The translations under genes and the position numbers were made by a program. Under the pieces are notes generated by a model. That model did no database searches and had not been told where the DNA came from. It worked only from the letters and a program-made list of their open reading frames with translations. From the IMG/VR virus record IMGVR_UViG_3300028840_006257, positions 149,011 through 213,010 of that record: a stretch of 64,000 nucleotides of DNA. One strand, 5' to 3'. Below are positions 1,987 through 41,849 of this stretch, piece after piece. Source of the stretch: a virus. Every line of letters starts with the position of its first letter. Position 1 is the first letter of the stretch.

Positions 1987-1992
1987 TAGAAT
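1987..1992 (+). promoter_or_regulatory. -10-like TAGAAT before the chaperonin gene
   Basis: TAGAAT overlaps the first possible ATG (1991) of the chaperonin frame. If it is a -10 box, transcription starts near 1999, which favours translation from GTG 2024 or ATG 2030. The same TAGAATG arrangement occurs at the PP-loop gene (36505-36510, - strand). Confidence 0.45.
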
Positions 1993-2029
1993 GGGGGATC
2001 GAACTCGTTCCCCCGCTTGCGCTGTGAAG

Positions 2030-3703
2030 ATGCCCAGGACACCCGTGGAGGTCGCGACGGGAAACGACCTGCGCCGGAGGATGCTCGACGGAGTCGCGGA
2101 GATGGTCCGGGCGGTCGCGGCGACTTACGGCCCGTGCGGCCGTACGGTGATGCTCGACCGTCCCGGTGGCCTCCTCTCCACGAAGGACGGGGCGACCGTG
2201 GCGTGGGAGATCGAGCCCGCCGACCCGGCGCGGCGCCTCGGGACCCGCGTCGTGCAGGAGGCGTGTGCCGAGGTTGACCGTGCCTGCGGAGACGGCACGA
2301 CGACGACGGCCATCCTCGTTCATGCCATCCTCGAGGAGAGCTTCCGGTGGGTGGCTGCGGGCGCGCATCCGGTCCTCCTCGCGAACGACCTCCGGGTGCT
2401 GGCCGAGAACATGGTGAGGTGCGACCTCTTCGACGTCGCGTGTCCCGAGCCCGTGGAGGACGAGGCCCAGATGCGGGAGATCGCTCTCGCGGCCTGCGAC
2501 GCGGACGCGGAGCTGGCCGACGCGGTCGTTGACGCCCTCGGTCGAGCGGGCTCCGAGGGCATGGTGATCATCGAGCAGGGAAGGGGGCGTGGAGTCGAGG
2601 TCGAGCACAGGCGCGGCACGGAGCTCGACCGGGGATGGGAGAGCAGCGACCTAGCTGGCCCCGACGGATCCCCCAGGCTCCTCGAGGTCCCCCTCGTCGC
2701 TCTGGTCGACGGCGTGCTCGACTCGCTCGAAGACGTCCGCACGCTGCTTGAGGAGGCGACCCAGTTTCCCCACCCCCTCCTCATCGCGTCGCGCGGGTGC
2801 TTCGGGCCGGCACTCCAGACCGTCGTGACGAATGATCGCAGGTTGATGCGCTCGGACGGGGGGACGTTCGAGGTCGTCGCCGTCAGGATTCCCGGACACG
2901 AGGGGGGCGCGCGTGACCTCCTCGAGGACGTCGCGGCGCTGGCGGGCGCGACCGTGGTCGACCCGAGCGTGACCTCGCCGGGCGCGTTCCGGTCGGAGAT
3001 GTTCGGCTCGGTCCAGACGGCCACCGTGCGGGCCGAGAGCACCACGCTGATTGCCTTCGAGGACAGGTTCCCGCTGATCGAAGCGCGCGTCGAGCAGCTG
3101 CGTCGCGCCGAAGGCGAGGCGGTGCACACTCATGACGCCGAGGAGATCCGCACCAGGATCGCGAAAATCACGGACGGGCTCTGCGTGATGAGAGTGGGAG
3201 GATCGACCGACGCGGAGATTCGTGAAAAGAGAGGACGAGTCGAGGACGCGCTGAGCGCCGTGCGTCTCGCGGTCGAGCGCGGCGTCGTTCCGGGCGCCGG
3301 AGTCGCGTACCTGGCGCTGGGCGAGTTCTTCGCGGGGGCGCTTCGGTTGTCGGAGACGACGGCAGCGCATGGACGCCCTGACCTGAGCGTGGCGGGTCTC
3401 GGGGCGAAGGTGCTCGCCAGGGCGCTCAGGGAACCCCTCAGGAGGCTGGCCCGAAACGCGGGTCACGAACCCTCGGTCGTCGAGCGACGCGTCCTGAGGG
3501 CGTCTGAGGAGCCTGGGATGTCTCCGTGTCCCTCCTGGGAGGCGGGATGGGACGCGACGACCGACGAGATCCGAGATTTGCGCCGCGCACCGGCTCTCCG
3601 AGACCCTCTCGGCGTGGTCGAGTGCGCCGTGCTCACCGCGATCTCCGCCGCCTCGACGCTGCTCACGGCGGAGGTCGCGCTCACCCGGAAGGAACGATCA
3701 TGA
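2030..3703 (+). CDS. groEL: GroEL/Cpn60-type group I chaperonin
   Basis: 557 aa from the ATG at 2030 (about 548 in bacterial GroEL); in-frame ATG 1991 and GTG 2024 are alternatives, but GroEL N-termini match the 2030 start. The equatorial-domain ATP site is recognisable: ATYGPCGRTVMLD, STKDGATVA and GDGTTTT near the N-terminus, and VVPGAGVAYLAL plus ...ISAASTLLTAEVALT near the C-terminus. The apical region is divergent and there is no GGM tail. Phage chaperonins are known from some large phages (e.g. EL, OBP), where they fold phage proteins. No GroES gene is visible, so it may act alone or use host GroES. The stop overlaps the next ATG. Confidence 0.93.
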   Translation: MPRTPVEVATGNDLRRRMLDGVAEMVRAVAATYGPCGRTVMLDRPGGLLSTKDGATVAWEIEPADPARRLGTRVVQEACAEVDRACGDGTTTTAILVHAILEESFRWVAAGAHPVLLANDLRVLAENMVRCDLFDVACPEPVEDEAQMREIALAACDADAELADAVVDALGRAGSEGMVIIEQGRGRGVEVEHRRGTELDRGWESSDLAGPDGSPRLLEVPLVALVDGVLDSLEDVRTLLEEATQFPHPLLIASRGCFGPALQTVVTNDRRLMRSDGGTFEVVAVRIPGHEGGARDLLEDVAALAGATVVDPSVTSPGAFRSEMFGSVQTATVRAESTTLIAFEDRFPLIEARVEQLRRAEGEAVHTHDAEEIRTRIAKITDGLCVMRVGGSTDAEIREKRGRVEDALSAVRLAVERGVVPGAGVAYLALGEFFAGALRLSETTAAHGRPDLSVAGLGAKVLARALREPLRRLARNAGHEPSVVERRVLRASEEPGMSPCPSWEAGWDATTDEIRDLRRAPALRDPLGVVECAVLTAISAASTLLTAEVALTRKERS

Positions 3704-5210: not shown

Positions 5211-8200
5211 ATGGACGCACGCCTCAAGTCCGCGCACGCGAAGCTCCGAGAGCTGCGCGAACGTACCGACCTGTCGCTCAGGCCGACGCCGCTGCTGAAG
5301 CAGACGTTCACGGACTTCGACGGCGAGGAGAAGCCGCTCAGGATCCGCTACTACCAGGTGCAGGGCATCCTGCACCTCGTGGCGATGAACAGGTTCCTCC
5401 TGGGCGACGACACGGGGTTGGGCAAATGCGTCGTCGGTGACACGTTGGTGAAGACGGATCGCGGTCTCGTCCCGATTCGCGATCTGAATCCCGGCGTAGA
5501 GGAACCGGACTCCTTCGCCGCGTTGGAGGGGGTGCGTTTTCAGGTCGGAGTTTCCGAGGTTCAGGGGCGGTATTTCTACTACGGCGGCGAGAAGCCGACC
5601 GTCAGACTCCGTACCCGCTCGGGCTACGAGCTGGAAGGGTCACAGATTCATCCTGTCATGGTGCGTCGCGACGGCACGGACCAGTGGGTCCGGCTGCGAG
5701 ACCTTCGGGAGGGTGACTTCGTTGCGGTGGAGCGTACCGACGACTTCTCGGTGTGTGAAGGACGGCCGGAGCCTGCTCTTCCGGGGCCTGGTTCGGGCGC
5801 CCCGCACGAACGCAGGCACAGGATCCCTTCCAAGATGTCGCCTGACCTCGCCCGGTTCCTCGGTTATCTCATCGGGGAGGGGTGGTTCCGACGACACGAC
5901 TTCTTTACGCTCAGCCAGCATCGCGAAGTGAACCCTGAAGTCTACGGGGACATGGAGGAGCTGGGACGTGTGTTGTTCGACGTGAAGATGCAGCCGGCCG
6001 AGGACGGGTTCACCATCGCGAGCACACAGATCGTTCGGTTCCTGCGCGGGATCGGCTGCGACCCGAGTCTGGCGCCGGACAAGGAGGTGCCATGGTCGGT
6101 GCTTCAGGCATCTCCCGCGTCCATGCGAGAGTTTCTTCGGGGATTCGTGGATAGCGAAGGGTCGGCCAGCGAGTTGGGGATTGAAGTGAGTTCGTCCTCG
6201 GAGAAACTTCTTCGCCAAGTCCAGGTCATGTTGCTGTCCTTTGGAGTTGTCTCGCAACGCAATCCGAAGCTGATCGAAGGGCGTGACCGCGTCTACTGGA
6301 GACTCCAGATCCAGGGCGATGACGCACGCATTTTTTCTCGACGCATCGGCCTGGTGTCTTCCCGCAAGACCGCGGCGCTCCGGCCGCTGCTGGAACAGGA
6401 CTCAAATCCGAACTATGACGTGGTGCCAGATGCGTCAGCAGAGATCGAGGACCTGCGTGCTGAGGTCTATGCCCGAGCGGGGCGCCACGGTTATAAAGGC
6501 GTAGGAATGACGGAGCGCTGGGGTTCGGCGTTTTACAACACGCTCGGTCATGTAAGGGCTGGGCGTCGGAATCCCACCTACCAGTACCTCAGGCGCTTCC
6601 TTGAGATCGCTCGTGAGGTTGGGATCTCCGAGTTGAATCCTGCGTACGCACGCGTCCAGGCCCTTGTGCGGCGCAAGTGGTTTTACGACCCTGTGGATGC
6701 CTTGGAGGACGGGTGGGCAGAGGTCTATGACGTTGAGGTCGATGATCCTCGGCATGCGTTCATCGGGAACGGCCTCGTCAACCACAACACGCTCATGGGC
6801 ATCGCCTCCCTCTGCTACATCTGGGCGAAGGCGCCGGAGACGAAGGCCGTCATCTTGACGAACAAGTCGCTGGTCCAGCAGTGGGCCGGGGAGTTCGACA
6901 AGTTCTGCGCGCCGGGCGAGATCAACGTCATCGTGTGCACCGGGGTTCCGGCAAAACGGCGGAAGATCTACCAGGAGTTCGAGGCGTCGACGGGGCCGAC
7001 CGTGCTCGTGATGGGCTACGCGACGGCGCGCCGCGACATCCGGCAGATCCAGGAGTGGTCCGGGCACGTGCTGATCACGGACGAGTGTTTCCAGTATCAC
7101 ACTCCCATTCTCCTGGCAGACGGTACTCAGGAGTTGATCGGGCGTCTGGTGACCCGAAAAACACCTGCCGAGGTTCTGTCGTGGAACGCCGAAACCGGGG
7201 AGATAGAGCCCCGACGGATCGTGGGGTGGTATCGAAAACCGATGCCGGGGATTCACGGGCGTTCTCCGAGCAAGCGAACGGCCGCCATGCTGAAGCTGGA
7301 GTTCAGGTGGGGGGGCAACCTCTTGAGCACGCCAGACCATGAGTTCTATCGCATGGATGGGACGAAGGTTCGGGCTCGTGACCTCGGGTCGGGGGACCGC
7401 ATCGTTCACTTCGATCGGAACATTCCTTCGCCGGACCAGATGCAGGTCCTTCTCGGAGGGCTTCTGGGAGACTCTTCTGTTTCACACCCACGAAAAACAT
7501 GGGCCGTCGCGTTCGGGCACGGGACGGCTCAGAAGGCGTACCTTGAGTTTAAGCGGGACGTGCTTATGAGTTTGGGAGTTTCGGAGGTCACGGAGACCCG
7601 AAGTGGCTACGCCAGGAGCAAAAAAATCTGGCGCTTTCGCATGAAGGCCAACGAGGAGTTCACCCGCGTCGCGCAGGACGACTGTGGCTTGCTTGTTCCG
7701 TACAGCGGGCCGCGTACGGATCGAAGGTACAGGAAACGAATCACGCACGAGTGGTTGAACCGGATAGGTCCTCTTGGGCTGGCGATCTGGTATGCCGATG
7801 ACGGAAGCCTGACTCAGTACCGTAGAAAGGACGGCTCGAAGGGGTACCAGGTTCGCATCAGCACAGACGACTTCACACAGTCAGAGGCTGGCATGTTGGC
7901 GGGTTGGCTTTACTGGGTGTGGGGGATCAAGGCCGAACCCAAGATTGAATACCGCAAGTCAGGAGGAAAGAGGAAACGCCGACGCCTGCCGTACCCTCAT
8001 CTGTTCCTTGGGGATGAGGCGGCTCGTTCCTTTTTTGAACTTCTTCCGGGCGCTTTCCCGGGGGTTCAGGCCAAGTTTCCAGACGGCATGCGGGTCCTTC
8101 GACCCCAGGATCTGGATCTGTTGTCGCAGACACAACTTCGGGACGACAGGCTAGTCCGTCGGTCTCGATGGAAAACCACGAAGCCAGCCGAACGGTACGT

Positions 8201-9359
8201 TTACGACCTTGAGGTCGAAGGAAATCACAACTACTTCGCCAACGGCACCCTCGTTTCCAATTGCAGCGCGTACAAGAACCCGAGCACCCAGACCTACCAG
8301 GTGGTTCGGCATCTCGGCCATCCTGAGCGCGCGGCCCGACACTGGGGGCTCACGGCCACGCTGATCAAGAACAACCTCATCGAGGGCTTCGGCATCTACT
8401 CGCTGCTCGTTCCCGGCCTGTTCCCGTCGTCCAAGAACAGGTTCATGAACGAGTACTGCCTGACGCGTCTTCAGCCCATCCCGAACAGCAGGCGTCAGAT
8501 CCCGGTCATCGTCGGCTACCGGCCCGACCAGATCGCCCGGTTCCGCGAGAAGATCGATCCGTACTTCCTCTCGAGGGCGAAGTTCGACGTGGCCAAGGAG
8601 CTGCCCGTGCTGACCATGCGGGAGCACAAGGTCGGCATGACGCGCGAGCAGGAGGACAAGTATCGCGAGGCCCTCTCCGGGTTGCTGGAGATCGACAAGA
8701 CGGGGGAGGAGAAGGAGATGACGAAGCTGACGGCGCTCACGTACTGTCAGGAGATCGTCGACCATCCCGAGCTCGTGGACTGCGAGGGCGACAGCGAGAA
8801 GATGGACGCGCTGTTCACCATGCTGACCGAGGGAGACTTCGCGGACGAGAAGGTGATCGTGTTCAGCCGGTTCAGGAAGATGGTGGACAAGCTGGAGGCC
8901 GTCGCCAAGTCCAAGAGGTACGGGTTGAGCACCGTCCGCGTGACGGGCAAGGAGGAGGAGGACGAGCGCCAGGAGGCCATGCGGCGGTTCCAGGACCCGA
9001 ACGACGCCGCCCGGATCTGCTGGATCACGACCGCCGCGAAGGAGGGCGTCAACCTCCAGGCGGCGAAGGTCCTCATCTTCTACGACTCCCCCTGGTCGGC
9101 GGGCGATTTCCTGCAGGTTCTCGGCAGGATGATTCGAATCGGCTCGCTGCACGACAGGTGCTACGCGGTACACCTGGTCGCGCGGGGGACGATCGACGTG
9201 CACGTGATGGCCGTCCTGCGCAAGAAGATGAAGCTGATAGAGCAGGTCATGGGGAGGCGCCTCAAGGGCGATGACATGAGCGACGTCGTGGTAGCCTCCC
9301 AGGACAGCATCGACGACCTGTTCGCGGCGATGAGCCGGGACGCGAGGAGGGCGGTGTGA
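5211..9359 (+). CDS. SNF2-type superfamily 2 DNA helicase/translocase with two inteins
   Basis: 1382 codons; excision of two inteins leaves a 536-aa helicase. Extein motifs: QxxG-like YYQVQG, Walker A GDDTGLGK|T (broken by intein 1), Walker B LITDE|C (broken by intein 2), and the helicase C-terminal lobe with VIVFSRF, EGVNLQAAKVLIFYD and QVLGRMIRIG (motif VI). The family uses ATP to move on or remodel DNA; in phages it assists replication or recombination. Exteins are GC-rich with G/C third positions; the inteins use more A/T-ending codons, suggesting later acquisition. The stop overlaps the GTG of the next gene. Confidence 0.92.
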   Translation: MDARLKSAHAKLRELRERTDLSLRPTPLLKQTFTDFDGEEKPLRIRYYQVQGILHLVAMNRFLLGDDTGLGKCVVGDTLVKTDRGLVPIRDLNPGVEEPDSFAALEGVRFQVGVSEVQGRYFYYGGEKPTVRLRTRSGYELEGSQIHPVMVRRDGTDQWVRLRDLREGDFVAVERTDDFSVCEGRPEPALPGPGSGAPHERRHRIPSKMSPDLARFLGYLIGEGWFRRHDFFTLSQHREVNPEVYGDMEELGRVLFDVKMQPAEDGFTIASTQIVRFLRGIGCDPSLAPDKEVPWSVLQASPASMREFLRGFVDSEGSASELGIEVSSSSEKLLRQVQVMLLSFGVVSQRNPKLIEGRDRVYWRLQIQGDDARIFSRRIGLVSSRKTAALRPLLEQDSNPNYDVVPDASAEIEDLRAEVYARAGRHGYKGVGMTERWGSAFYNTLGHVRAGRRNPTYQYLRRFLEIAREVGISELNPAYARVQALVRRKWFYDPVDALEDGWAEVYDVEVDDPRHAFIGNGLVNHNTLMGIASLCYIWAKAPETKAVILTNKSLVQQWAGEFDKFCAPGEINVIVCTGVPAKRRKIYQEFEASTGPTVLVMGYATARRDIRQIQEWSGHVLITDECFQYHTPILLADGTQELIGRLVTRKTPAEVLSWNAETGEIEPRRIVGWYRKPMPGIHGRSPSKRTAAMLKLEFRWGGNLLSTPDHEFYRMDGTKVRARDLGSGDRIVHFDRNIPSPDQMQVLLGGLLGDSSVSHPRKTWAVAFGHGTAQKAYLEFKRDVLMSLGVSEVTETRSGYARSKKIWRFRMKANEEFTRVAQDDCGLLVPYSGPRTDRRYRKRITHEWLNRIGPLGLAIWYADDGSLTQYRRKDGSKGYQVRISTDDFTQSEAGMLAGWLYWVWGIKAEPKIEYRKSGGKRKRRRLPYPHLFLGDEAARSFFELLPGAFPGVQAKFPDGMRVLRPQDLDLLSQTQLRDDRLVRRSRWKTTKPAERYVYDLEVEGNHNYFANGTLVSNCSAYKNPSTQTYQVVRHLGHPERAARHWGLTATLIKNNLIEGFGIYSLLVPGLFPSSKNRFMNEYCLTRLQPIPNSRRQIPVIVGYRPDQIARFREKIDPYFLSRAKFDVAKELPVLTMREHKVGMTREQEDKYREALSGLLEIDKTGEEKEMTKLTALTYCQEIVDHPELVDCEGDSEKMDALFTMLTEGDFADEKVIVFSRFRKMVDKLEAVAKSKRYGLSTVRVTGKEEEDERQEAMRRFQDPNDAARICWITTAAKEGVNLQAAKVLIFYDSPWSAGDFLQVLGRMIRIGSLHDRCYAVHLVARGTIDVHVMAVLRKKMKLIEQVMGRRLKGDDMSDVVVASQDSIDDLFAAMSRDARRAV
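5427..6788 (+). mobile_element. Intein 1 (454 aa) in the helicase Walker A motif, with LAGLIDADG endonuclease
   Basis: Begins with Cys (CVVGDTLVKTDRG, block A) and ends YDVEVDDPRHAF...VNHN before Thr +1. Ligated exteins read GDDTGLGK-TLMG, a perfect Walker A. A block B-like GSQIHPVMV is present. Two endonuclease motifs (RFLGYLIGEGWF and FLRGFVDSEGS) show a dodecapeptide homing endonuclease, so the intein is probably mobile. Insertion in an invariant ATP-binding motif is typical. Confidence 0.93.
7086..8261 (+). mobile_element. Intein 2 (392 aa) in the helicase Walker B motif, with LAGLIDADG endonuclease
   Basis: Begins with Cys after ITDE (CFQYHTPILLADGTQE) and ends YDLEVEGNHNYFANGTLVSN before Cys +1, giving extein ITDE-CSAYKNPS. 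STPDHEF is block B-like; LLGGLLGDSS and AIWYADDGSL are the endonuclease motifs. The penultimate residue is Ser rather than His, a tolerated variant. Two inteins in one gene, at the two ATPase motifs, is notable. Confidence 0.92.
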
Positions 9360-23641: not shown

Positions 23642-26600
23642 GTGAACCTGAGTTTCCTGGACAGCCTTGAGGAGGCGACTAGGCCCGACGTGGAACGCCG
23701 CGCCTGGATCGACGACGTGCACCTGGAGCTCGTGACCGAGAAGACGCTGGACGGCGTCGTGGACGACTGCATCGCGTCGGGGCGTTTCGGTTGTGACCTG
23801 GAGACCACAGGTCTCGACAACCGGGTGTTCGACGGACGCACCAAGGACCAGATCGTCGGCTACTGCCTCAGCCCGGACGTGAAGCGGGGTTACTACATCC
23901 CCGTCCGGCACCGGAAGGGAGAGCAGCACAACCTCCCGATCCAGCGGGTCGAGACGGCCATCCGTCGCCTGGTGAGCTCCGAGGCCGTGGCAATCTTCCA
24001 CCATGCGAAGTTCGACCAGGAGTTCCTCCAGTTCTGCGACCTCGGCCTCTGGGACGAGCCGCGCCAGTTCGACGACACGATGATCCTGGCGTACCTGTGG
24101 AACGCCAGGAACAAGCAGAAGGGCCTGAAGTACCTGGTCAGGACCCTCCTCGGCGTCGACATGATCGAGCTGGACGAGCTGTTTCCGGGCGATCACAAGG
24201 GCGCCAAGGACTTCTCCGAGCTCGACCCGTCGTGGGACCCCTGCGTCTGGTACGCGGCGGCGGACCCGCTGTTCACCTACCGGCTGTACGAGCACCTTCA
24301 TCCCCTCGTGGCCGCGCCGGACGGGGACCGCGGGAGGGGGCAGGAGGTCGTCTACAACCTCGAGAAGATGTGCCTGCCGGCGACGCGCTGGATGGAGCGG
24401 TGCCGGGTCTACATTGACCAGGACAGGGTGACCGAGTTGATGCAGCTCGGACAGCAGGAGTACTTCGACTCGATGCGGGAGATCTACGACTTCTCCAACG
24501 AGTCTCTCGGGCGGCGCATCGAACCAGGGTGGTTCAGGCTGCTGCGCGAGAAGTTCGTCGCGGACAATCCCGACTACAACATCAACCAGCAGATCCACGA
24601 CTGTCGGCTCGAGGCGAAGAGGAAGGGGTTCGACGACCTGGACGGCAAGGGGCACTACTTCAAGACCGAGAAGGGGTGGCCCGAGCGCTGCGACGTGTTG
24701 AGTCGAGAGCAGCTCGGTCCCCTGTTCGAGGAACTCCAGATACCGGACCTGCGCAAGACGGAGAAGAAGGAGCAGGTTCAGACGACGCAGGCCGAGATCG
24801 CGCGCCTCGAGGAGCAGCATGGCGAGAAGTACCCGTTCCTGCCCAAGATCAAGCGCCTCGGCGAGCTGCAGAAGGCCCTGGGGACCTACCTCATCTCGCT
24901 CCGCAACGACGTGGGCCCCGACGGGACCCTGAAGATCGACTACAACCAGTGCGGGACGGACACGGGTCGCTTCACGACTCCCTCGTCGCAGAATCCTGCG
25001 TCCGACGGCGGGACGAAGTTCCCTATGCACGGGACCCCGGCCACCTACGACAAGTCGCGTCCTCAGTGTCTCCTGCGAGCTCGCGAGTGCGTCAAGGCGC
25101 GGCCCGGCAAGGCGATGGTCGCGTGCGATTTCGGTGGGGTCGAACTCAGGATCGCCACCATCCTGTCGGGCGAGCCCCTGTGGCTCCGCGAGTTCTTCCG
25201 GTGCAGCACGTGCGGCCAGACGTTTGACCGCGGCGACGGCAAGAGCACGCCGCCGGCTCCTCCGGCCTACTGTCCCAAGTGCGGGGACGACCGTATTGGA
25301 GACCTGCACACCCTGACCGGCATCACCTTCTTCGGCGAGGACAAGGTCGGCACGAAGGAGTGGAAGCAGCTGCGGAACCGAGCGAAGAGCGCCAACTTCA
25401 GCATGGCGTACGGAGGGGGGCCCTCCTCCATAGTCCGCACCATCAAGTGCGACGAGCAGGAGGCCTCGCGGCACCATCTGGCCTTCAACCGAACCTACTC
25501 GACGCTGAAGGCGTGGTGGGACAGCGTAAAGGCGTTCGGCCGCGCGCACGGATACGTCAAGACGGCCTTCGGGCGCCACTACCCTATCCCCGACATCCAG
25601 CTGCCGACGAACGCCCGCGGCGTGCAGAAGCAACTCGCGGAGCAGTACAAGGCGAGGGTCGCGGCCGGGAAGAAGGCGACGCCGCCTGACGAAGCGGCCA
25701 TCCGGCGCCAGATGGACTGGAACCGAAAGTTCCGAGCGAAGGCCGAGCGCAACGCGACCAACGGACCGATCCAGGGCTGTCTTCACGCGGACTGTCGGAT
25801 TCCGACGTCTCTTGGGACTTGTCGGATCCAGGACCTCTGGGAACTCCGTGAACGAGGAGTTAGTAGATTCAAGGTATGGACCGGGCGAAACTGGGAGGCC
25901 GCGTGCGCCCTCTACTCAGGATTGAAGGAGCTCGTCGTCACGGAGTTCGAATCGGGACAGACCATCAGGACGAGCCCCGAACACCTGTTTCGCGTGTATC
26001 GGGAGGGGGCGTTCGGCTGGGTTCGGCAGGACGAGCTCACGCCGGACATGTGGGTGGCGACGAATTCAATGCCCGTGATCTCAGAGGGAGAACCCGTTTA
26101 CTCGTACGACTCGACGACGTTCGACCTAGAGGGGGACCCGGTCAAGATTCCGAATTTTCCCCACAATCGAAAGCCGTTCGTCTTCAAAGGAAATTCCCCA
26201 ATCTTGTGGGAGTTTCTCGGAATGGTTTACGGAGACGGGACCATCCAGACGGATTACTTGCTGGTCCACGTCGGGGAGGCGCCGAAGCACCTTACGACCG
26301 ACTTCTCCGCCGAGCGGCTTGCTCGCGAATGCGCGGAGGAACTCAACGACGCGCTGGAAATTGGAGCCATAGCCCGGAAAAGATGTCGAAGGGAGGGCGA
26401 CGCTCGGCGCCCTACCTGGCAGATCAAGGTCCACAATAAGTCGTTTCGCGACTTTTGCCGGATCGTGTTGGGCGTCGAAGATCAGAACACCTGGACCAAG
26501 CGGTTCCCCCGCGCCGTGTGGTCGGAGAGCTACGAGAACCGCAACGCTTTCCTTCGGGGGTATTTTTCGGCCGACGGTGGCATCAACTGCGAAAGCGTGA

Positions 26601-27910
26601 TCGATGTCCGGAGCGTGAACGAGGGTCTTCTGCGAGACGCGCACCAGCTGCTTCGCTCGGTCGGCATTCGTTCCACTCTCCGGCTGGCCTCTCAACGGGT
26701 GTCCGTCAAGGATCGACGAGCTTTTCGGGATCGAGTGGGATTCCTTCATTCCTACAAGCGCGACCGCATGGCCGCCATGACCGAGAATCCGTACTTCGAT
26801 CAGTGGCACCTCTGTCCTCCAGATCTCGTTGGACGAGTGGGTCAGTGCGTTCGAGAGTCCTCGCTGTGGCTGACCCTGACCAAGGACGAGAAGTCCGCCG
26901 TCTACCGGCTGATGAAGGGTTCGGGAAGCAAGTCACAGTGTCTTCGTTTTCTCAACCGAGTGAAGGGCGCCGAGGTTCCGCAGAGCCTGCGGGACGCCCT
27001 AGTATACGACTTCGAGCGCATCGTCGATTCTGAGCATACTGGAGAAATCGTCGAGATGTATGATGTCGAGGTGTTCGACGACGAGCACGCGTTCGTGGCC
27101 GACGGTTACGTCGTCCACAACACCTCGGCGGACATCACGAAGCTGGCGATGGCCCTGATCTACAAGGAGTGCAAGAAGCGGGACTGGCTCGACAAGGTCT
27201 ACATGATCATCACGATTCACGACGAGCTCGTGTTCGAGATCGATCTCGACATCCTCGCGGAGGCCGTCGAGGTGTTCCAGGAGATCATGACCCGGAACAG
27301 GACGATCACGAAGATGTGCTGGTCCGTGCCCCTCACCACCGACTGCGAGATCGGGTTCGACTGGACCGTCCCGTACGACGTGAAGGACTTCAAGTACCGT
27401 CGGGTGCGGCCCGACGGCGTCCAGGTCAACGAGAAGGGGGAGCCGACCAAGAAGGTGTGGCCCGAGGAGTTCGTGAAACTCTTCGGTCCGGTGTACGGGT
27501 TTGCCGGGGACGCGGAGGCTCCTCCGGCCCCGGCTTTCAAGCCCCTTCCCGCACCGCCCGCGGAGGCGCCCCAGAAGGCCCAGGAGGCGCCCGCACCCGT
27601 CGAGGCCCCGTCGCTCCCGGAACGCGTCGTCGAGGCTCCCGAGCGCTCTGAGACGCCCTCGACGCCTCTCCCGGCGCCGACCCTCCCGTCGGCGCCCCTG
27701 GAACGTGGTCAGGTCTATGAGTACCGGCTGCGCGCCCTCGGGGTCGGCGTCGCGGACCGCCTGGCGCGCGCCATCGTACAGTGCCACGGTCGGGGGTCGC
27801 ACCCGCTGCGCGTCGTCGGTCCGACGGGCGAGGAGGCCCTATGGGCCGGCGCGGAGATTCTGGTAAACCCCATTGAGTTCGAGACCGTCGCCGGCATGTA
27901 CGGAATCTGA
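23642..27910 (+). CDS. Family A DNA polymerase with 3'-5' exonuclease, zinc-ribbon insertion and an intein
   Basis: 1422 codons; 974 aa after intein removal. Exonuclease motifs DLETTG (residue 52), FHHAKFDQEF and YAAADPLFTYRLYE. Polymerase motif A is CDFGGVELR (about 493), motif B RAKSANFSMAYGG, motif C HDELVFE after the intein. Between A and B sits a four-Cys ribbon (CSTCG ... CPKCG, about residues 519-546) absent from E. coli Pol I. The C-terminus has a long Pro/Ala linker and a roughly 70-residue terminal domain, perhaps for partner binding. GTG start. It is the likely replicative enzyme. Confidence 0.95.
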   Translation: MNLSFLDSLEEATRPDVERRAWIDDVHLELVTEKTLDGVVDDCIASGRFGCDLETTGLDNRVFDGRTKDQIVGYCLSPDVKRGYYIPVRHRKGEQHNLPIQRVETAIRRLVSSEAVAIFHHAKFDQEFLQFCDLGLWDEPRQFDDTMILAYLWNARNKQKGLKYLVRTLLGVDMIELDELFPGDHKGAKDFSELDPSWDPCVWYAAADPLFTYRLYEHLHPLVAAPDGDRGRGQEVVYNLEKMCLPATRWMERCRVYIDQDRVTELMQLGQQEYFDSMREIYDFSNESLGRRIEPGWFRLLREKFVADNPDYNINQQIHDCRLEAKRKGFDDLDGKGHYFKTEKGWPERCDVLSREQLGPLFEELQIPDLRKTEKKEQVQTTQAEIARLEEQHGEKYPFLPKIKRLGELQKALGTYLISLRNDVGPDGTLKIDYNQCGTDTGRFTTPSSQNPASDGGTKFPMHGTPATYDKSRPQCLLRARECVKARPGKAMVACDFGGVELRIATILSGEPLWLREFFRCSTCGQTFDRGDGKSTPPAPPAYCPKCGDDRIGDLHTLTGITFFGEDKVGTKEWKQLRNRAKSANFSMAYGGGPSSIVRTIKCDEQEASRHHLAFNRTYSTLKAWWDSVKAFGRAHGYVKTAFGRHYPIPDIQLPTNARGVQKQLAEQYKARVAAGKKATPPDEAAIRRQMDWNRKFRAKAERNATNGPIQGCLHADCRIPTSLGTCRIQDLWELRERGVSRFKVWTGRNWEAACALYSGLKELVVTEFESGQTIRTSPEHLFRVYREGAFGWVRQDELTPDMWVATNSMPVISEGEPVYSYDSTTFDLEGDPVKIPNFPHNRKPFVFKGNSPILWEFLGMVYGDGTIQTDYLLVHVGEAPKHLTTDFSAERLARECAEELNDALEIGAIARKRCRREGDARRPTWQIKVHNKSFRDFCRIVLGVEDQNTWTKRFPRAVWSESYENRNAFLRGYFSADGGINCESVIDVRSVNEGLLRDAHQLLRSVGIRSTLRLASQRVSVKDRRAFRDRVGFLHSYKRDRMAAMTENPYFDQWHLCPPDLVGRVGQCVRESSLWLTLTKDEKSAVYRLMKGSGSKSQCLRFLNRVKGAEVPQSLRDALVYDFERIVDSEHTGEIVEMYDVEVFDDEHAFVADGYVVHNTSADITKLAMALIYKECKKRDWLDKVYMIITIHDELVFEIDLDILAEAVEVFQEIMTRNRTITKMCWSVPLTTDCEIGFDWTVPYDVKDFKYRRVRPDGVQVNEKGEPTKKVWPEEFVKLFGPVYGFAGDAEAPPAPAFKPLPAPPAEAPQKAQEAPAPVEAPSLPERVVEAPERSETPSTPLPAPTLPSAPLERGQVYEYRLRALGVGVADRLARAIVQCHGRGSHPLRVVGPTGEEALWAGAEILVNPIEFETVAGMYGI
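25778..27121 (+). mobile_element. Intein 4 (448 aa) in DNA polymerase, with LAGLIDADG endonuclease
   Basis: Starts with Cys after GPIQG (CLHADCRIPTSLGTCRIQD), block B-like RTSPEHLFRV, ends YDVEVFDDEHAFVADGYVVHN before Thr +1. Joined exteins read NGPIQG-TSADITKLAM, the conserved motif upstream of motif C. FLGMVYGDGTI and FLRGYFSADGG are the endonuclease motifs. Confidence 0.94.
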
Positions 27911-37665: not shown

Positions 37666-38358
37666 TCAGGCCCTGCGCCTCTCGTCGAGGATGGCTTGGA
37701 TGGCCCGGAAGCGACGGTTGCTCTCCTCGGCGAGCTCGTCGAGGCTCATGGGGACGATCTCGCGCTCGAGCCACGCCCCCAGGCTCTGCGGGGCCTCGGC
37801 CGGAGGGACGCCGAGGTGCAGATAGTGAGGTTTCACGGAGAGGAGCTGCCGCACCATCGGTCGGCTGTGGGTCGTGACGAACACGCCCCTCGTCTGCTCG
37901 GGAAGATCGGCCACGAACTCGGCCACGACCGTTCCAGCTCCGGCCGCGGCCGCCTCCCCCATGCCGATGTCGGGCTCGTCCCAGTAGAGGAGGTGCGAGT
38001 GCGTCCGAGCTCGGCACGTGCTGATGGCCGTCCTCACCGTCATTCCCGAGTTCTCTCCGGTGGAGCGGAAGCCCTCGTCTCCGTAGACGAAGCCCTTCAT
38101 CGCCCCCATCATGTTCATGCCGGCGCGGGCCTCCATGCTGAGGTGGATGACCTCCTTGATGGAGGTGTGGCTCTTGGCCGACGCCTGAACGCAGCGTCGG
38201 AAGAAGCTCTTCCCGCTCGCGTTCTCTCCGAGCACGAGGAAGAGGGGCGACGACCCCTTCACCCAGAGGGCCGGGATGGCGGGTTCGTCGCCGACGAAGT
38301 ATCGCCAGCTACCGAGGATGTTTCCGACGATCCAGAGGCCGGTGCTCGGCTTGCTCAT
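37666..38358 (-). CDS. ABC/SMC-type ATPase
   Basis: 230 aa; ATG 38358 after GGAGGAG and overlapping the preceding gene (ATGA). Walker A GENASGKS, Walker B HLLYWDEPDIGMG, and an H-loop-like FVTTHSRPMVRQLL. There is no transmembrane part and no obvious ABC signature, so it resembles stand-alone RecF/SMC-like or OLD-type ATPases. Coupled translation with the metallo-beta-lactamase-fold gene suggests a joint role, perhaps in nucleic-acid processing. Confidence 0.82.
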   Translation of the reverse strand: MSKPSTGLWIVGNILGSWRYFVGDEPAIPALWVKGSSPLFLVLGENASGKSFFRRCVQASAKSHTSIKEVIHLSMEARAGMNMMGAMKGFVYGDEGFRSTGENSGMTVRTAISTCRARTHSHLLYWDEPDIGMGEAAAAGAGTVVAEFVADLPEQTRGVFVTTHSRPMVRQLLSVKPHYLHLGVPPAEAPQSLGAWLEREIVPMSLDELAEESNRRFRAIQAILDERRRA

Positions 38359-39197
38359 CGGTCTCCTCCGTCGAACAGGAGGATCCGGTCGAGCATGGCC
38401 GCCGGGAACCTGCGTCGCAGGATCTCCTCGGCCTCCTCGCGCGAGTGCTTCATGGACCTGTGCGTGAGCACGAGATAGTCGCCCTCGAATTTCTCGCAGT
38501 GCTCGGCCATCTCGGCCACGTGCGTGTGGCCGTAGCGCCGCGCGCCCTCGACGTTCGCGTCGTCCATCTCCCAGGTCGTGACCTCGTGGACGAGCACCTT
38601 GGCCCTCCGAGCCCTCTCGTGCTCCAGCAGGAAGTCGATCCGGGTGTCGCCCGAGACCACCAGGAGGGTGCTCACCACGTCGTCCGTGACCTGCACGCCC
38701 TCCCGACGGAGGCGCCCTATCTCGGAGCCCTCCATGCCGACGAACTCGGTCTTGAGCTTGCTCGTGGTGCGGTCGACGCCCCACCCGAGCGACGCCCCCC
38801 GGTGCCAGCTCCGCATCGCGTGTACGACCGCGCCGCGTCCGAGCTCGAAGAAGTAGCCGGGCCTCGCGGGGTAGAGGCGAACCTTCGCCTCGTGCTCGCT
38901 GTCCCGCTGCACGTCGCGCATCGCCTCGAGGAGCCTCTCCATCGGCTCGCCGAGCTCGTCCGGTAGGTAGACGCTCAGCGTCGCCTTGTTGCGCCGAATG
39001 GAGCGCAGGCTCACGATGTACGGGAGCGCCGCCACGTGGTCCGCGTGACCGTGGGTCAGGAAGACGTGGTCGACGGTCGCCCCTGGCACCGCGCCCGCGT
39101 CGAACACAGCGCGGATCTCGGGGACGTGGAACGCCGTCTGGCAGCCGCCCTGGGCGAACCCGTGCAGCGTCACGCCGCCTATGCTGATCTTCTCCAT
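38355..39197 (-). CDS. Metallo-beta-lactamase-fold hydrolase (RNase Z-like)
   Basis: 280 aa from ATG 39197. HTHGHADHVAALPYIV gives the HxHxDH zinc motif; VVSGDTRIDFLL, HEVTT and a late VLTHRSMKHS give further metal ligands. The order matches RNase Z/ElaC-type phosphodiesterases, which trim tRNA 3' ends. Given the tRNA arrays nearby, tRNA processing is an attractive but unproven role; other MBL-fold functions are possible. Preceded by the third copy of the TGTAAA/dyad element. Confidence 0.82.
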   Translation of the reverse strand: MEKISIGGVTLHGFAQGGCQTAFHVPEIRAVFDAGAVPGATVDHVFLTHGHADHVAALPYIVSLRSIRRNKATLSVYLPDELGEPMERLLEAMRDVQRDSEHEAKVRLYPARPGYFFELGRGAVVHAMRSWHRGASLGWGVDRTTSKLKTEFVGMEGSEIGRLRREGVQVTDDVVSTLLVVSGDTRIDFLLEHERARRAKVLVHEVTTWEMDDANVEGARRYGHTHVAEMAEHCEKFEGDYLVLTHRSMKHSREEAEEILRRRFPAAMLDRILLFDGGDR

Positions 39198-40466: not shown

Positions 40467-40618
40467 GGTCAACGCCGAGTGAAGAACCTTGATCGCGTTT
40501 TCACGCCAGATTTACACGTCTGGTGGCTTTTCCAATTTGCCTACCCCGCCGTGTGGTGGCGGGGGCTGGACTCGAACCAGCAAGGTTTGCTTGTGAGGTT
40601 GATCTGCGGGCGTTGACC
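40467..40618 (-). tRNA. Circularly permuted tRNA-Tyr(GTA) gene with flanking complementary arms
   Basis: On the minus strand the 3' half comes first: T-arm GCTGG-TTCGAGT-CCAGC (40581-40565), acceptor CCCCGCC, A, CCA (to 40554). After a CAC spacer the 5' half follows: acceptor GGCGGGG (40550-40544), TA, D-arm GGC-AAATTGGAAAA-GCC, anticodon arm CCAGA-CGTGTAAA-TCTGG, and a class II variable arm CGTG-AAAA-CGCG (to 40494). Acceptor strands pair perfectly. AACCTT next to the T-arm pairs with AAGGTT after the variable arm, and GGTCAACGCC (40618-40609) with GGCGTTGACC (40476-40467). The anticodon loop has 8 nt. Cutting at CAC|GG by RNase P would give a two-piece tRNA without ligation. Confidence 0.8.
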
Positions 40619-40655
40619 TAAAGGGTAGAAGCGACCGAGTTGAAAGGCTGTTTGA

Positions 40656-40729
40656 TGCAAGGAGCAGGACTTGAACCTGCGACCTTCGGTTTGTCGAACC
40701 GACGCTCAAGCCAGCTGAGCTGTCTTTGC
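40656..40729 (-). tRNA. tRNA-Val(GAC)-like, C at position 33
   Basis: 74 nt. Acceptor GCAAAGA/TCCTTGC (one A-C mismatch), D-arm GCTCAGCTGGCTTGAGC, anticodon arm TCGGT-TCGACAA-ACCGA, T-arm GCAGG-TTCAAGT-CCTGC, discriminator A, no CCA. If the loop is standard the anticodon is GAC and position 33 is C instead of the near-universal U. The gene at 47789 has the same oddity. Confidence 0.65.
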
Positions 40730-40758
40730 TTGTGAGCCTGACCTTGGTGGTCGCTTCT

Positions 40759-40890
40759 TGGTGGCGGACCCTGGAGTCGAACCAGGTTGCTTGTGGACCT
40801 TCAACGGGTGCCTCTCCGGGAGAGGTGAGTGTTGTTGTCGGTTTTACCGATTTACCGTCGGGTGACCCCCCGCCGGGGTCTTGGTCCGCC
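40759..40890 (-). ncRNA. 132-nt tRNA-like RNA (acceptor, D-like and T arms with extra hairpins)
   Basis: The 3' end is a perfect tRNA end: T-arm CCTGG-TTCGACT-CCAGG, then GTCCGCC-A-CCA. An exact acceptor partner GGCGGAC lies at 40890-40884. In between are a hairpin GACCCC-GGCGG-GGGGTC, a D-arm-like GGT-AAATCGGTAAA-ACC and a hairpin CCTCTC-CCG-GAGAGG, far more than a normal tRNA holds. No clear anticodon arm. Could be an interrupted tRNA, a decayed tRNA or a tRNA-mimic RNA. Confidence 0.45.
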
Positions 40891-40934
40891 GTGTTGTAGG
40901 TAGTTCCGAGAGCGTGGTCTTGCTGGCTTCAAGA

Positions 40935-40956
40935 CCCCGACCCTCTGGGGTCGGGG
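40935..40956 (-). other. Strong 9-bp hairpin in the tRNA leader
   Basis: CCCCGACCC-CAGA-GGGTCGGGG on the minus strand, without a T-run, between the putative promoter at 41055 and the tRNA-like RNA. It may be a processing signal or attenuator. Confidence 0.45.
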
Positions 40957-41049
40957 ATGCGCTTGTAGGACCTGCGCGTTTGGCTTTGATCCTCGAGGGA
41001 GGTTAGCCAGGAACAGCCGAGAAAGGAGTCTGGGGCAGCGCAGAGCCGT

Positions 41050-41064: not shown

Positions 41065-41637
41065 TCAGATTTTCTCGACCCGCGCCGGCGAGATCGAGTA
41101 CCCCACCTTCCGGCGCGTCTGGACGAACTGCTGGACCGCGAGCGCGAGGAAGGCGCTCACGACTTGGATGAAGGGGAGAAATTCCCCCTCTTCGCAGGTG
41201 GCAGCCCCCGCCACGTCCTCGTCGTCGACCACGAAGTCCTCCTCCCAGATGATCCTCCCGTAGCCACCGTCGGCCGCGAGGGCCCCGTGGAGGCACGGGA
41301 CTCCGTTCGCGCGGGCGAAACCCTGGACGAGCCTGCGAGCCTCGCCGTTGTCTAGGCAGTCGACGAGGAGCTCGGCGCCGCCCAGGAGCTGGGTCGTGTT
41401 GTCGGCCGTGAGCTTGTGGCCCACGACGTCGACCTTGCGACCGAAGCAGAACTGCATGGCTCCCCGAAGCGCCTCGGTTTTCTTCTTGCCCACGCCAGCC
41501 CTCAGGTGGAACTGCGAGGCGACATTCTTCATCTCGACCCTGTCGAAATCCACGAGGGTCAGAATCACCTTCTCGTTCCGCAGGGCCTGAACCAGGTGCG
41601 AGCCCAGGGCGCCGGCTCCGACGATCGTGATCTTCAC
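41065..41637 (-). CDS. E1-like (ThiF/MoeB/HesA-type) adenylating enzyme
   Basis: 190 aa from GTG 41637, overlapping the preceding TGA (GTGA). VKITIVGAGALGSHLV is the nucleotide-binding Rossmann motif; LVDFDRVEMKNVASQFH gives the D-x-D...N...Q signature; CLDNGEARRLVQ and GAATCEEGEFLPFIQVV follow, the Cys being a candidate for the thioester site. E1 enzymes adenylate the C-terminus of ubiquitin-like proteins. A ubiquitin-like protein and a JAMM protease lie in the same operon. It is minimal in size, close to the catalytic core only. Confidence 0.87.
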   Translation of the reverse strand: MKITIVGAGALGSHLVQALRNEKVILTLVDFDRVEMKNVASQFHLRAGVGKKKTEALRGAMQFCFGRKVDVVGHKLTADNTTQLLGGAELLVDCLDNGEARRLVQGFARANGVPCLHGALAADGGYGRIIWEEDFVVDDEDVAGAATCEEGEFLPFIQVVSAFLALAVQQFVQTRRKVGYSISPARVEKI

Positions 41638-41849
41638 GGCACGGTCCTCGCGTTTACGCTCCGCAGCTTTTTCCACTCGCCCTCGTGGAAACGGCAGTAG
41701 TGATGTTTGACGTTCACCTCGAGGCCGTCCTCCGTGCTTCGGATGTCGTGCGTGGGGATGACGATCCTGTCTCCCTCGATCCTGGCGCCGAGCACGGCGA
41801 GCATCTCCTCCAACCCCGGAGTGCATTCTCCCAGACGTTCGATGATCAT
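41634..41849 (-). CDS. Small protein of the ubiquitin-like operon, 71 aa
   Basis: ATG after AGGAGG; stop overlaps the E1-like start. MIIERLGECTPGLEEMLAVL then IVIPTHDIRSTEDGLEVNV and HHYCRFHEGEWKKL. Tight coupling with the E1-like gene suggests a partner. It is too short for a normal E2; the Cys in HHYCRF is the only notable candidate residue. Confidence 0.7.
   Translation of the reverse strand: MIIERLGECTPGLEEMLAVLGARIEGDRIVIPTHDIRSTEDGLEVNVKHHYCRFHEGEWKKLRSVNARTVP

Follow-up and report, generated by a model that had tools for sequence, protein, structure and literature searches.

Permuted tRNA(Tyr) gene of the window

The stretch of DNA analysed here (the window, 64,000 nucleotides (nt)) covers bases 149011-213010 of the 213-kb virus record IMGVR_UViG_3300028840_006257, a record that is possibly partial. 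It carries a tRNA(Tyr)-type gene of 152 nt (40618 to 40467, on the minus strand like all surrounding tRNAs), in which the 3' half of the tRNA is encoded before the 5' half. The gene is genuinely permuted and not a product of chance, and it is a member of a conserved, apparently undescribed family in very large phages. Judging from related sequences, we regard it as almost certain that these phages have a real family of permuted tRNAs. In the open-access literature, permuted tRNAs are described in algae and archaea only, where the halves are ligated, and only rRNA and transfer-messenger RNA (tmRNA) work in pieces (PMC3978253). Our search of this literature found no report of permuted tRNAs in phages or bacteria; subscription papers and most preprints were outside the search, so the novelty is provisional.

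In the direction of transcription (minus strand throughout), the gene begins with the 5' strand of an outer stem, P1 (GGTCAACGCC, 40609..40618), followed after 8 nt by the 5' strand of a second stem, P2 (AACCT, 40596..40600), a single C and the motif ACAAGC (40589..40594), from which a linker leads to the T-arm GCTGG-TTCGAGT-CCAGC (40565..40581). Then come the acceptor 3' strand CCCCGCC (40558..40564), the encoded ACCA (40554..40557), the spacer CAC (40551-40553) and the acceptor 5' strand GGCGGGG (40544..40550), which pairs with the 3' strand over 7 of 7 positions. After TA follow the D-arm GGC-AAATTGGAAAA-GCC (40525..40541), the anticodon arm CCAGA-CGTGTAAA-TCTGG with GTA in its loop (40506..40523), the variable-arm hairpin CGT-GAAA-ACG (40496..40505), P2' (AGGTT, 40485-40489), CTTCACTC (40477-40484) and P1' (GGCGTTGACC, 40467-40476), which forms a perfect 10-bp stem with GGTCAACGCC. 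The D-arm is recognised in sequence and fold, and the T-arm also in the alignment of relatives; the acceptor 5' strand, variable hairpin, P2' and P1' are placed by sequence and alignment, and the anticodon arm, spacer and CTTCACTC by sequence.

The window member has all of the following tRNA(Tyr) hallmarks: a 7-bp acceptor stem, G1-C72, A73, CCA, a T-loop TTCRANN, GG in the D-loop and the anticodon GUA. A 7-nt anticodon loop with U33 is absent, and the loop CGTGTAAA has 8 nt. The initial annotation had proposed a permuted tRNA-Tyr with CAC between the halves, seven acceptor pairs and an encoded CCA, and this order was confirmed, on the minus strand. The 8-nt loop, which it had pointed out as a second oddity, is present and conserved in orthologs. 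Its two perfect outer arms were borne out in part: the 10-bp stem is perfect and conserved, but the 6-bp arm beside the T-stem exists in the sequence and is not conserved. AGGUU, the 3' strand of that arm, pairs with AACCU further upstream (P2), both in the minimum free energy (MFE) fold and in relatives. The outer arms, supposed to take the place of a variable arm, are real, but the molecule also has a variable hairpin of its own.

The predicted fold contains every cloverleaf arm and the outer stem, with an MFE of -60 kcal/mol against -42.8 +/- 3.8 for shuffled sequences (z -4.5; 0 of 200 shuffles reached it). A permuted-tRNA pattern with an acceptor stem of this kind gave 1 match in the window versus 0.00 per shuffle, and CACAAGCAA occurs in 3 copies versus 0.18 expected, every copy inside this tRNA array. 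Neither ARAGORN nor the Rfam tRNA model called the permuted gene; when it was rejoined in silico, ARAGORN recognised a tRNA with a 4-nt anticodon, tgta. The Rfam search found no known RNA family that explains the permuted RNA. There was no Rfam or ARAGORN match to tmRNA, and an anticodon arm stands where the tag would be.

Chance resemblance to a T-arm seems to account for a twister-sister match (18 bits, E 1.7) and for the other Rfam matches below threshold. We also considered a GC/GC helix of 2 bp linking ACAAGC to the variable hairpin, but the GC is more simply the end of that hairpin.

Relatives and covariation

In scans of IMG/VR, a T-arm and CCA ahead of a complementary acceptor strand turned up at many loci. 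Reading the sequences showed that most of these were permuted tmRNAs, or tRNA-like RNAs that lack the anticodon arm. The complete permuted tRNAs, which have both this arm and a D-arm, amounted to 33 candidates after removal of artefacts, some of them doubtful (9-nt loops), and ARAGORN called 33 of 33 as tRNA once rejoined in silico. Further permuted members were obtained from later scans and from the whole tRNA arrays of member records, while scans with ACAAGCAA plus a T-arm, and those of genome contigs, were swamped by ordinary tRNA-Val. Many members lie in records of 200-620 kb, and the member contigs include records of 619, 529, 497, 437, 392, 377 and 372 kb. Their anticodons include those for Tyr, Trp, Phe, Leu, Lys, Ile, Asn, Arg, Ser, Glu and others. 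When member arrays were compared by BLASTN with named phages, the hits were ordinary tRNAs, the one exception being a relative without anticodon in Gordonia phages.

Three close relatives (L221, L217 and L385) are permuted tRNA(Tyr) genes with 8-nt loops, CATGTAAA, CATATAAA and CGTGTAAA, respectively. The tRNA(Tyr) hallmarks are kept in the orthologs, except that one is without CCA and another differs at N73 and in the anticodon (AUA); NCCA with a 3-5 nt spacer is kept in 3 of the 4 Tyr orthologs. Six related loci, comprising Tyr orthologs and two further permuted neighbours, were aligned for covariation. In this alignment 99.1% of the cells pair, and 11 of 38 pairs show two-sided changes (P1 3, P2 2, acceptor 4, T stem 1, D stem 1), a level reached in 0 of 500 shuffles; slid controls were 24-45% paired. 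Compensatory changes in related phages, which the initial annotation had proposed as a check on both of its arms, are seen in P1 and P2; its 6-bp inner arm is not conserved. P1, which was outside the search patterns, pairs in 21 of 21 members despite differing sequence, taking the best helix for each flank; the helices within own flanks are 7-12 bp, versus mostly 5-6 bp when flanks are cross-paired between members.

The genes could be functionless, degenerate or rearranged tRNA genes, with the permutation as a relic of tandem duplication, and one related array (L217) does contain a decayed closed gene (see below). The covariation strongly disfavours such pseudogenes, as compensatory changes are found in the P1, P2, acceptor and D stems, and T-loops and motifs are invariant across divergent phages. 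We consider this explanation highly improbable.

Other permuted RNAs were met in the same scans. Phage contigs of IMG/VR commonly contain permuted tmRNA genes, in which T-arm and CCA precede the tmRNA start (L009-L011, L014, L015, L019-L021 and others). The Gordonia phages Keelan (L352:586-672; MN586014, about 61.55-61.64 kb) and Fryberger (L403) have a permuted tRNA-like RNA without anticodon arm, with an ACCACAA acceptor loop, a D-arm and an outer stem. It is conserved across Gordonia Ronaldovirus isolates, with compensating changes, and is annotated as a hypothetical protein or left unannotated. Gordonia phage Ronaldo has such an anticodon-less relative as well; all three phages are grown on G. 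terrae. L033, L048, L055 and L072 also have permuted tRNA-like RNAs without anticodon arm, several with UUACUUC in place of UUACAAGC of the window family. A 133-kb contig contains a permuted tRNA (L029:3329-3482, minus strand) whose anticodon UUA would decode the stop codon UAA.

A shared element in three arrangements

The permuted tRNAs have a common element at the junction of variable arm and T-arm, consisting of P1, CACUC, P2 and UNACAAGC before the T-arm. P1 has 7-12 bp in the permuted genes, P2 has 4-5 bp, and CUC (mostly CACUC) stands ahead of the P1 3' strand in most members. The ACAAGC motif is conserved across the permuted family; variants of UNACAAGC before the T-arm are ACACGC and ACAUGC.

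In a closed form, the same element is capped by a short hairpin and separates the variable arm from the T-arm in tRNAs of normal order that belong to the same arrays. This architecture was found in 15-24 tRNAs of relatives, which have an ordinary open acceptor end. By their apparent order of parts, closed and permuted genes are one ring opened at different places. The window has such a gene as well: the initial annotation saw no other Tyr tRNA in it, but a second Tyr-like gene with GTA (loop CGGTAAA), in normal order and ending in ACCA, lies at 40759..40890 on the minus strand, with its element closed by the hairpin CCTCT..AGAGG. Its insert of about 60 nt before the T-arm is the reason why tRNA finders miss it. 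In a third arrangement the open element surrounds a complete tRNA domain; this is the case for tRNA-Val(GAC) in the window (element 40627..40758, minus strand, P1 AGAAGCGACC/GGTCGCTTCT; domain 40656-40729, from sequence and ARAGORN) and for Asp, Arg and Asn elsewhere. Because the element is also a closed insert and a flank of complete tRNA domains, it must be more than a clamp.

At 40898-41030 (minus strand), TACAAGC and CTCTCGG motifs surround two hairpins with no tRNA (z -3.3), and L217 has a similar stretch.

The element might be the signal of a small intron of a type other than bulge-helix-bulge, with cleavage by a nuclease near CAG and ACAAGC and joining of the halves by a ligase, for example RtcB. 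Under this scheme, closed genes would be spliced, and permuted genes would give circles opened at the acceptor by RNase P and RNase Z, as in Cyanidioschyzon. By inspection of the structure, the precursor ends have no bulge-helix-bulge of the 3-4-3 form, and instead show P1 of 10 bp, an internal loop and P2 of 5 bp. An intron is favoured by the fact that one element both interrupts normal-order tRNAs and pairs around permuted ones, which mirrors how introns and permuted genes are related in algae (PMC3978253). Of the 17 member records, 6 have RtcB, including most records >320 kb, and 3 have an RNA ligase above the cut-off. Against it, all inserts seen are at the variable-arm/T-arm junction and none is in an anticodon or D loop, none of the known bacterial endonucleases fits, and joining is senseless for complete tRNA domains inside the element. 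Neither RtcB nor a PF09414 ligase is in the window's own 213-kb record, which may be a fragment. On balance we find the intron rather improbable.

Anticodon loops

A 7-nt loop with U33 is missing in 15 of 32 permuted and 11 of 15 closed members. Taken together, 26 of 47 members lack U33 or have an enlarged loop, versus 20 of 506 ordinary tRNAs in the same stretches; the members are not independent, though the contrast is large. A good part of the 20 deviant ordinary tRNAs are Val(GAC), and C33 replaces U33 in several ordinary tRNA-Val(GAC) genes (window, L355, L361, L365). The usual loop is not found in any Tyr member, permuted or closed, whereas 10 of 10 ordinary tRNA-Tyr of the same arrays have U33; the ordinary tRNA-Tyr loops in relatives are all CTGTAAA or TTGTAAA. 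Several members have A34, e.g. Asn(ATT), Leu(AAG) and Ile(AAT), which is rare among ordinary tRNAs nearby.

Ordinary tRNAs of the same isotypes are present beside the altered ones in the same arrays. By analogy with other phages, such deviant loops beside ordinary copies suggest a conflict with host tRNA nucleases. Resistance to anticodon nucleases has been proposed for phage tRNAs whose anticodon loops are changed (PMC10264068), and rescue of phage from retron-Eco7 by a phage-encoded tRNA-Tyr has been shown (PMC11555353).

Mature form of the RNA

For the mature form we tentatively favour, in line with the initial annotation, a clamped two-piece tRNA produced by processing at the acceptor end, a reading which seems possible to us rather than probable. 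The transcript would fold so that P1 and P2 clamp both outer ends, RNase P would cut before GGCGGGG, and the 3' side would be trimmed to the encoded CCA, possibly by the phage's own RNase Z-like enzyme. A candidate for this enzyme is encoded downstream of the tRNA cluster (38355..39194, minus strand): the product is an RNase Z-like metallo-hydrolase matching TIGR02651 (E 6e-19, 68 bits, under the curated cut-off) and Lactamase_B_2 (2.5e-12). The result would be a two-piece tRNA chargeable with tyrosine and held together by the acceptor stem, tertiary contacts and the clamp. Its role may be that of a spare tRNA: with its anticodon loop and topology changed, it would be attacked poorly by host defences that cleave tRNAs. 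The two-piece form fits the window member because of its encoded CCA, its spacer, its long P1 and the precedent of tmRNA, for which permuted genes without ligation exist (PMC3978253).

Several points weigh against a clamped two-piece tRNA. A two-piece clamp is senseless for the complete tRNA domains flanked by the element, some of which have poor acceptor stems or stems of about 3 bp (by inspection). In several relatives the acceptor stem is capped by no more than 4 nt, with UUCG, UCCG and GAAA among these caps. The high rate of CCA among permuted members is largely an artefact, as the search patterns demanded CCA; frequent CCA was therefore dropped as proof of selection on the acceptor end, and the permuted members found without such patterns mostly lack CCA. 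Loss of U33 may also impair decoding.

The short caps, and the complete tRNA domains in which the acceptor is sealed and CCA is absent, would suit RNAs that are sealed, non-chargeable mimics of tRNA, with a capped acceptor stem and ends in P1, acting as decoys or inhibitors of tRNA-binding enzymes like YrlA RNAs. A weak YrlA match over T-arm, acceptor and D-arm (24.5 bits) and the ordinary tRNAs of the same isotypes in the same arrays also agree with mimics. We hold them to be somewhat unlikely, since the acceptor ends of closed-form members are open, three of the four Tyr orthologs and two Gordonia phage relatives retain NCCA, and the anticodon arms and acceptor pairs are complete, whereas YrlA has no anticodon arm. 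Also, the Ro60 (TROVE) protein was found in 0 of 18 records (the window's and 17 member records), which may be incomplete.

The clamped two-piece tRNA can be extended to the whole family: huge phages may make natural two-piece tRNAs from permuted genes, clamped by the element and with altered loops, as a translation-competent set proof against host tRNA cleavage. In this general form we think it unlikely. Standard tRNA finders miss permuted genes, which leaves the tRNA inventories of huge phages incomplete. With the shared element there is a handle on whether a natural tRNA may work in two pieces, on a possible tRNA-joining reaction in bacteria, and on phage translation when hosts destroy tRNAs.

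Other genes of the window

A ThiF/MoeB-like E1 gene (41065-41826, minus strand) adjoins the tRNA array. On the plus strand, the window has genes for a SNF2-type helicase (5211-9359) and DNA polymerase I (23642-27910), each with an intein, and a phage gene for a GroEL-like chaperonin (1991-3703).

Comparison with known systems

In the permuted tRNA genes of Cyanidioschyzon, other algae and Thermofilum, as here, the 3' half is encoded first and a short spacer joins the acceptor halves. Those genes have a bulge-helix-bulge and are joined by splicing endonuclease and ligase (PMC3978253), whereas the phage genes have P1/P2 with CACUC and ACAAGC, and are always broken at the variable-arm/T-arm junction.

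Two-piece tmRNA, a sensible analogue already named in the initial annotation, likewise has T-arm and CCA before the acceptor 5' strand, and its halves stay base-paired. The phage RNA differs from it in having no tag reading frame and no tmRNA GGATTCGAC start, but a complete D-arm and anticodon arm.

The bacterial Y RNA YrlA (RF02553) shares with the phage RNA the permuted tRNA-like order and the outer stem. YrlA itself has neither an anticodon arm nor CCA. The likeness in order could mean that the phage RNA is a Y RNA bound by the Ro60 (Rsr) protein, but it scores 24.5 bits against a YrlA gathering score of 69, and the lack of a TROVE gene in the phage records speaks against a Y RNA, which would surprise us greatly here. 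YrlA is encoded near Ro60 (operon: PMC7790460).

The tRNAs of mycobacteriophage cluster C1 (eLife 85183) also have altered anticodon loops, thought to resist anticodon nucleases, but their genes are ordinary, neither permuted nor with an inserted element. With tRNA-Sec and tRNAs of long variable arm, the closed phage members often share a long D-stem, a short loop and a large extra domain near the variable arm; in the phage genes, however, this domain is a separate P1/P2 hairpin after the variable hairpin, and it occurs with many anticodons.
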